In this document: positions 5,364 through 6,963 of the stretch, piece after piece
Numbering within the stretch: the first letter of the stretch is position 1
Layout of the letters: every line of letters begins with the position of its first letter
Assembly (NCBI RefSeq): GCF_014892515.1
Contig: NZ_JADBGR010000064.1
Span: 1 to 64,000 of the forward strand
Length of the DNA: 64,000 nucleotides
Direction: 5' to 3'
Source: Myceligenerans pegani
GTDB lineage: Bacteria; Actinomycetota; Actinomycetes; Actinomycetales; Cellulomonadaceae
Translations under genes and position numbers: made by a program
The notes under the pieces: model-generated
What the model saw: only the letters and a program-made list of their open reading frames with translations
The model's database searches: none
What the model was told of the DNA's origin: nothing

Positions 5364-5572
5364 TATCTGGAGTTCCCCGGAATCGGCAGGAAGCGTAGCC
5401 CGGCGCGTCCGCCGGTGTGCGCTCGGTGCCGGATAACTCGCTGGACCCGTCGCGGCGGCACCGCATAGCGTGGGACCCGGCCGGCGTGGGGCGTGACGAA
5501 CCCCGTGAGAGCGTGCGGCCCGCGCGTGCGGCGTACCGACGAGAGGCCGGCAGCTCGAGTTCCGCCGGCGAA

Positions 5573-5640
5573 GGTGTGGTGGCACCGCGAATTTGCCCCT
5601 CGCCCACACCTCCAGGGCAGTCATTGCGAACTGGAGGTGG
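5573..5640 (+). promoter_or_regulatory. Translational T-box riboswitch core upstream of AspRS
   Basis: The 14-base T-box consensus is nearly complete here: TGGCACC at 5580-5586 followed by GCGA. Two mutually exclusive folds are visible. Antisequestrator: 5573-5579 (GGTGTGG) pairs with 5604-5610 (CCACACC), the TGGCACC bulge follows, and GCGA 5587-5590 pairs with TCGC 5600-5603. Sequestrator: 5607-5615 (CACCTCCAG) pairs over nine bases with 5631-5639 (CTGGAGGTG), hiding the ribosome-binding site of the ATG at 5644. The TGGC bulge would pair with a tRNA ending GCCA, as expected for tRNA(Asp) or tRNA(Asn), whose discriminator is G. The Stem I specifier loop should lie within about 5445-5570; GAC at 5495 or 5538, or AAC at 5499, are candidates I could not settle. 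Confidence 0.8.
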
Positions 5641-5643
5641 AAC

Positions 5644-6963
5644 ATGAACTCGTTGTCTCTCGAGAAATCTCAGCCGACACGCGTCGAGCGGACGCTGTGC
5701 GACGACGTCTCCGCGGCCGAGCCGGGAAGCGTCGTGCGCGTGCAGGGCTGGGTGCACCGGCGTCGCGCGCTGTCGGCGGTGACGTTCGTCGTCGTGCGCG
5801 ACCGGTCCGGCCTGGCGCAGGTCGTGGTGCGGCCCGACGACGGTCAGGATGTCCCGCCCGAGGAGACCACCGTCGAGGTGGTCGGGACGGCGACGGCGAA
5901 CCCGCAGGCTCCCGGCGGAGTCGAGCTCACCGCGCCGACGATCACGGCGCTGACCGAGCCGGCCGCGACCCCGCCGGTCGAGCTGTGGCGGCCGAGCCTG
6001 AACGCCGCGCTGCCCACGATGCTCGACCACGCGCCCGTCACCTGGCGCCACCCGGCCCGGCGCGCCGCGTGGGAGATCGCCGCGGCTTCCGTGCGCGGGT
6101 TCCGCTCGACGCTCGACGCCGCCGGGTTCACCGAGGTGCAGACCCCGAAGTTCGTCGCCTCGGCGACGGAGTCGGGCGCGAACGTGTTCGAGGTCGACTA
6201 CTTCGGCCGTCCCGCCTACCTGGCGCAGTCCCCGCAGTTCTACAAGCAGCAGCTGGTCGGGGTGTTCGAGCGGGTGTACGAGGTGGGCCCGGTGTTCCGC
6301 GCCGAGCCGCACGACACGGTCCGGCACCTGGCCGAGTACGTGTCGCTGGACGTGGAGCTCGGGTTCGTCCGTGACCATCGCGACGTGCTGGGCCTGCTGC
6401 GCGACGTCGTCGCGGGCATGGCCGGCGGGATCACGGAGCACGCCGCGGGCGCCGTCGAACGGCTCGGGATCGAGGTGCCGCGGGTGCCCGACCGGATCCC
6501 GGTGATCCATTTCGCCGACGCCCTGGCGCTGGTCGGAGCGCCGCCCGAGGAACCGGACCTGGCGCCCGAGCACGAGCGGGCGCTGGGGGAGTGGGCGCTG
6601 CGGGAGCACGGCAGCGACTTCCTCGCCGTCGAGGGCTACCCGATGGCCAAGCGCCCGTTCTACACGCACCCGCAGCCGGACGACCCGCGCTGGTCCAACA
6701 GCTTCGACCTGCTGTTCCGCGGGCTGGAGCTGGTCACGGGCGGGCAGCGGCTGCACCGCCCGTCGGACTACGTCGCGGCCATCGCGGCGCAGGGGGAGGA
6801 CCCGGCCGCGTACGCCTCCTACCTGCAGGCGTTCGAGCACGGCATGCCGCCCCACGGCGGGTTCGCGATCGGCCTGGAACGCTGGACGGCGCGGATCACG
6901 GGCGCGGCCAACGTCCGCGAGGTCGCGCTGTTCCCGCGCGACCTGCACCGCCTGACGCCGTGA
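5644..6963 (+). CDS. aspS: Aspartyl-tRNA synthetase, archaeal type (probably non-discriminating)
   Basis: Class II AspRS of 439 residues, the short archaeal form without the bacterial GAD insertion (bacterial AspRS is near 590). N-terminal OB-fold anticodon domain (about 15-105); motif 1 near GFTEVQTPKF (161-170); the flipping-loop region YLAQSPQFYKQ; motif 2 FRAE-HDTVRHL (218-229); motif 3 GGFAIGLERW near the end. In the OB fold, GWVH has His where discriminating archaeal enzymes have Trp, which from memory hints at charging both tRNA(Asp) and tRNA(Asn). ATG start directly after GGAGGTGG. Controlled by the T-box just upstream. A standard bacterial aspS probably exists elsewhere in the genome. 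Confidence 0.88.
   Translation: MNSLSLEKSQPTRVERTLCDDVSAAEPGSVVRVQGWVHRRRALSAVTFVVVRDRSGLAQVVVRPDDGQDVPPEETTVEVVGTATANPQAPGGVELTAPTITALTEPAATPPVELWRPSLNAALPTMLDHAPVTWRHPARRAAWEIAAASVRGFRSTLDAAGFTEVQTPKFVASATESGANVFEVDYFGRPAYLAQSPQFYKQQLVGVFERVYEVGPVFRAEPHDTVRHLAEYVSLDVELGFVRDHRDVLGLLRDVVAGMAGGITEHAAGAVERLGIEVPRVPDRIPVIHFADALALVGAPPEEPDLAPEHERALGEWALREHGSDFLAVEGYPMAKRPFYTHPQPDDPRWSNSFDLLFRGLELVTGGQRLHRPSDYVAAIAAQGEDPAAYASYLQAFEHGMPPHGGFAIGLERWTARITGAANVREVALFPRDLHRLTP

Follow-up and report, generated by a model that had tools for sequence, protein, structure and literature searches.

A second aspartyl-tRNA synthetase gene in Myceligenerans pegani is preceded by a leader with the anatomy of a translational T-box specific for tRNA(Asp)

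The leader of aspS2, a gene for a second aspartyl-tRNA synthetase (AspRS) in Myceligenerans pegani, is very probably a translational T-box that senses uncharged tRNA(Asp) and controls the gene behind it. It occupies positions ~5478-5643 of the window, that is, of the whole 64-kb stretch of DNA that was analysed. In the proposed mechanism the codon GAC, exposed in the loop that caps an ultrashort Stem I, would pair with the GUC anticodon of tRNA(Asp), and the GCCA end of the tRNA, when uncharged, would pair with the UGGC of the T-box bulge and so stabilise an antisequestrator. Formation of the antisequestrator would free the Shine-Dalgarno sequence for translation of aspS2; with the tRNA charged or absent, a more stable sequestrator would hide the ribosome-binding site. 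We infer the binding of tRNA and the switch itself from the anatomy of the leader, its conservation and covariation, the specifier, the matching tRNA, a phased promoter and the presence of a second AspRS gene. The elements are as follows.

5466-5471, forward strand: predicted -10 promoter element TAGCGT, of the form TANNNT that is phased to the specifier in relatives
~5478-5643, forward strand: leader RNA, with the start near 5478 predicted from the -10 box
5479-5483 pairing with 5516-5520, forward strand: basal helix of Stem I, a covarying helix with five G-C pairs in the window
5488-5504, forward strand: specifier hairpin of the ultrashort Stem I, GGGG(CGUGACGAA)CCCC, with covariation
5495-5497, forward strand: specifier codon GAC (Asp), followed by a purine
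5521-5541, forward strand: Stem IIA/B-like element, with a hairpin (5521-5523/5531-5533) and a possible pseudoknot (5525-5527/5539-5541)
5546-5569, forward strand: Stem III (5546-5550 with 5565-5569), with covariation
5573-5610, forward strand: antisequestrator, with helix A1 of 7 bp (GGUGUGG 5573-5579/CCACACC 5604-5610) and helix A2 (GCGA 5587-5590/UCGC 5600-5603)
5580-5586, forward strand: T-box bulge UGGCACC, whose UGGC is complementary to the tRNA 3' end GCCA
5607-5639, forward strand: sequestrator hairpin of 9 bp, CACCUCCAG (5607-5615) with CUGGAGGUG (5631-5639)
5633-5637, forward strand: Shine-Dalgarno sequence GGAGG, buried in the sequestrator, 6 nt before the ATG at 5644
5644-6963, forward strand: aspS2, 439 aa, archaeal-type, predicted non-discriminating AspRS (NF003483, 531.7 bits)

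The two alternative structures can be read directly from the sequence: positions 5607-5610 are common to the antisequestrator and the sequestrator, which are therefore mutually exclusive. The antisequestrator has the shape of a T-box antiterminator, a 7-bp helix flanking the 7-nt bulge with a short second helix on top. Every cell of it is paired across the 44 aligned leaders (100%), and six sequences show a U-A/A-U swap. The 7-bp core of the sequestrator is paired in 99.4% of cells and shows a single compensatory change (in L076), so that invariance rather than covariation is the main evidence for it. A first-pass annotation, made from the sequence alone, had described the bulge, the 7-bp antisequestrator and an exclusive 9-bp sequestrator over the ribosome-binding site; all are present as stated and conserved in dozens of species, and its proposal of a translational output holds, with a sequestrator that covers GGAGG and excludes the antisequestrator.

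Folded without tRNA, the OFF state of the window leader reaches -32.9 kcal/mol against -22.3 kcal/mol for the ON state, and OFF is the more stable in all 44 leaders. Binding of tRNA must then pay ~10 kcal/mol for switching, as expected of such a riboswitch. The OFF fold of positions 5570-5605 also pairs GGC of the bulge with a conserved downstream GCC (alignment A1, columns 148-150 with 162-164; at least 43 of 44 leaders form these pairs), an arrangement that would hide the tRNA-binding bases as well. Single-sequence folding of the whole leader gave a stability not significantly different from that of shuffled sequences (z = 0.39), and the case for the leader therefore rests on comparative evidence.

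That evidence comes from 76 aspS2 loci gathered from relatives, 74 of them long enough for the leader test; 44 aspS2 leaders make up alignment A1 and the covariance model. The model matches upstream of aspS2 in 69 of the 74 relatives (E < 1e-3), including 25 outside the model-building set. Aligning the leaders of homologous aspS genes, a check suggested at the outset, did reveal helix covariation: of the cells that make up the proposed ON structure 93.4% are paired, 14 pairs carry compensatory changes, and in a blind scan of A1 the strongest covarying column pairs fall mostly inside the proposed helices. The covariation score of the ON structure is 0.192, compared with 0.094 in shuffles (none of 500 reached 0.192) and at most 0.07 when the structure is slid along the alignment. 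In the basal helix of Stem I (A1 columns 7-12/68-73) 68% of cells are paired and five of six pairs show double changes. The specifier hairpin is paired in 100% of cells, with compensatory changes at three of four pairs (AU25/GC18 at one of them); its stem is GAGG/CCUC in many species and GGGG/CCCC in the window. Stem III is likewise paired in 100% of cells, with double changes at four of five pairs, and the Stem IIA/B-like hairpin shows one compensatory change (CG40/UA3). The pseudoknot 5525-5527/5539-5541 is tested weakly by these data, its pairs being nearly invariant.

The leaders differ among themselves in several details. A regular-expression search had suggested that the T-box was absent from ~15 relatives, most of which have UGGCACA and were recovered by the covariance model. 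The bulge reads UGGCACA in place of UGGCACC, with the remaining leader intact, in L025, L027, L044, L048, L065, L066, L067, L070, L071, L072 and L074, and UGGCGCC in L090. An extra hairpin stands beside the specifier in 32 of the 44 leaders and is absent from the window leader; the leaders of L065, L070, L072 and L074 look even smaller than the other aspS2 leaders. In the own genome the leader model gave two further, weak matches (21.8 and 14.5 bits); both are without the UGGNACC motif and were put down to chance. Gene neighbourhood gave no clue to function, since clusters of neighbouring ORFs are common to the Nocardioides loci only and none is shared across genera.

The specifier, which the first-pass annotation could not locate, is GAC at 5495-5497, a codon for Asp and not Asn. 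GAC is invariant in 44/44 leaders and lies inside a covarying hairpin upstream of an AspRS gene, in a 9-nt loop of the form NNU-GAC-RNN; U precedes it in 43 of 44 leaders and the following base is always a purine (G in 24, A in 20). Asp specifiers in TBDB are usually GAC (94%; PMC7778990). The tRNA-Asp of the same genome has the anticodon GUC and discriminator G73 and fits both the GAC and UGGC ends, and the tRNA-Asn (anticodon GUU, U1-A72) also has G73, so that the earlier remark that TGGC suits the discriminator G of tRNA(Asp) or tRNA(Asn) is correct. A TANNNT pattern lies 27-29 nt ahead of the specifier in 34 of 44 leaders, and at no other place within the upstream 150 nt. A -10 box so phased puts the expected start of the RNA ~17 nt ahead of GAC, near 5478 in the window and not at 5445, where the element had been placed. 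Such a start would exclude a long Stem I and make Stem I truly ultrashort. In the aspS2 T-box of a Gaiellasilicea metagenome-assembled genome (MAG) (L083:4770-4790) AAC (Asn) replaces GAC, possibly a specifier switch on a non-discriminating AspRS.

The Rfam T-box model RF00230 finds no match to the window leader at its gathering score, nor at E <= 10. The ileS T-box of the same genome reaches only 33 bits where the cut-off demands 93, a score attained in none of the 148 genomes sampled from the same class. Leaders of aspS2 with a long Stem I, from Gaiellasilicea, Chloroflexales, Streptosporangium and Acrocarpospora, are matched over the full length of the model (L083 87.5, L084 84.2, L088 65.5, L086 62.8, L107 54.2 and L085 49.4 bits), all below threshold with E down to 1e-17. 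The cut-off is thus non-discriminating in this group, and since the own ileS T-box fails it while orthologous leaders match end to end, the missing match to the window leader is not decisive. The lack of a T-box model hit, named in the first-pass annotation as a refutation, thus holds nominally for the window leader, while its orthologues are matched. A model built from ileS-type leaders alone ranks the aspS2 leader first in the 64-kb window, with a modest 16.1 bits and a rough E of 0.007, and it also detects aspS2 leaders in relatives; searched the other way round, the aspS2 model picks up one clear ileS match (E 8e-6) and, weakly, further ileS leaders. The original T-box reading is upheld by this first rank and the RF00230 matches to orthologous leaders, along with the covarying helices and the GAC specifier.

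Related arrangements occur further afield. In Chloroflexi a terminator-like hairpin and its T-rich tail come after the T-box of aspS2; as predicted from these sequences, the output is swapped while sensor and gene stay together. A GAC T-box of the aspS2 type (L162, G220:C2:289116-289300) lies upstream of an ORF that starts MLRTHE and resembles a bacterial-type housekeeping AspRS, with 32% identity to the window protein. In an actinobacterial genome of 9.4 Mb, a T-box with a candidate Ser specifier UCC (L167, G316:C45:63072-63165) precedes a SerRS-like ORF (starting MLDVTLIRNHPDHV). A gammaproteobacterial (Pseudomonadales) MAG has UGGCACCGCC with a possible flanking helix a short distance before an AspRS of 38% identity (L092:4844-5024), where the leader-model match is weak (E 0.11).

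The product of aspS2 is an archaeal-type AspRS, closest to the Thermus enzyme and predicted to be non-discriminating. It matches NF003483 'aspartate--tRNA(Asn) ligase' with 531.7 bits; bacterial aspS models remain far short of their cut-offs, and TIGR00458 also falls below its own. The best solved match is the T. thermophilus ND-AspRS (AspRS2; 1n9w/3kfu) at 368 bits. At the positions equivalent to W26 and K85 of T. kodakarensis, residues that we take to bear on the aspartylation of tRNA(Asn), the protein has H and P, the same as the Thermus enzyme. The genome holds a separate, bacterial-type AspRS-like gene (C76, 36% identity), so the earlier description of aspS2 as a second, archaeal-type AspRS stands, and a search of the same genome gave no AsnRS-like match. 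This fits the pattern that extra AspRS genes occur mainly in Actinomycetales without AsnRS (PMC4206432). The distribution of aspS2 is patchy: 12 of 99 genomes searched have it, the own genome counted.

Other explanations start from the same anatomy. That the leader senses tRNA(Asn) instead is improbable. UGGC fits either discriminator, the own tRNA-Asn has G73 and U1-A72, the Gaiellasilicea leader L083 carries AAC, and there is precedent in the two-codon T-box of C. acetobutylicum, which controls a redundant aspS with gatCAB (Saad 2012, 2013, known here through their citation in PMC4206432). Against this, only some leaders (e.g. CUGACAACC) have an AAC overlapping the GAC site and others lack it, and an Asn specifier was rejected because GAC is invariant in all 44 ultrashort leaders, with variable bases after it. 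A degenerate T-box that has lost tRNA control and persists as a constitutive or temperature-sensitive ribosome-binding-site hairpin could account for the missing Stem II and distal Stem I, for the ~10 kcal/mol preference for OFF without tRNA and for the drift of the bulge to UGGCACA in some relatives. Such decay is very unlikely, given that the specifier, the purine after it, the bulge and all helices are constrained across several families, with compensatory changes.

Synthetases can also regulate themselves: E. coli ThrRS represses translation by binding thrS mRNA. By analogy, AspRS2 might bind a tRNA-like hairpin and repress its own translation irrespective of aminoacylation, an idea suited by a hairpin that lies ahead of a sequestered Shine-Dalgarno sequence in the leader of a synthetase gene. 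We consider it the most far-fetched of the three alternatives, for the conserved loop carries the codon GAC and not the anticodon GUC, RF00230 matches orthologous leaders, and both Stem III and the invariant UGGNACC bulge would be left unexplained.

Among known T-boxes, four classes are distinguished, each using the IDTM, a Stem II S-turn or both to augment tRNA binding, and class III requires Stem II with an S-turn (AGUA/GAA) (PMC10482949, 2023). The leader shares with the class III ileS T-boxes of Nocardia farcinica and Mycobacterium an ultrashort Stem I without IDTM, an apical-loop specifier at ~nt 16-19, Stem III, the T-box bulge and an antisequestrator/sequestrator output. It differs in its Asp specifier, its 9-nt loop (5-6 nt in class III), the gene controlled and the lack of a recognisable Stem II S-turn. 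In none of the 44 leaders does the stretch that separates Stem I from Stem III contain an AGUA motif, though an equivalent of unrecognised form may exist; most ileS leaders and several long-Stem-I aspS2 leaders have the motif. An elbow-binding IDTM would not fit in so short a Stem I, whose basal helix leads straight into the small IIA/B-like element, which appears to be absent too in relatives of the Intrasporangium/Humibacillus type. With neither IDTM nor recognisable S-turn, the leader fits none of the four classes.

The class I (RF00230) leaders of L083-L086 and L107 share with the window leader an orthologous downstream gene, the discriminator domain and, in most, GAC before the same CCUCC, and differ in their long Stem I with an AGAGA motif, their Stem II and, in Chloroflexi, the terminator-like hairpin. 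The class II glycine T-box of B. subtilis glyQS also has no Stem II, but its long Stem I bears an elbow-binding IDTM and its output is transcriptional. The C. acetobutylicum gatCAB-aspS2 T-box likewise places a redundant AspRS under T-box control, whereas the aspS2 of the window is a single gene with an Asp specifier and a translational output; the clostridial element reportedly reads two codons, Asn and Glu, in an operon with gatCAB. On balance we lean towards regarding the aspS2 leaders as a further architectural class, with a 9-nt apical specifier loop, an ultrashort Stem I, no IDTM and no S-turn, in which tRNA recognition would rest on the specifier, acceptor-end contacts and something undescribed.

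Among the papers searched, none describes an Asp-specific actinobacterial aspS2 T-box or reports an experiment on any of these leaders. Translational T-boxes are known on ileS in Actinobacteria (PMC1262725, PMC7583486), where T-boxes have mainly been described for that gene; the aspS2 leaders, a group found across many Actinobacteria and with kin in Chloroflexi, extend translational control to an Asp-specific, redundant, archaeal-type synthetase. A T-box without tRNA-elbow contact or S-turn would be a small sensor and would test the minimal RNA for tRNA recognition. As the switch would free the Shine-Dalgarno sequence on uncharged tRNA(Asp), aspS2 would provide a second AspRS that is induced when the housekeeping AspRS no longer charges enough tRNA; the trigger may be a shortage of Asp or an impaired main AspRS. 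This suggests that the second AspRS is kept in these bacteria as an inducible reserve.
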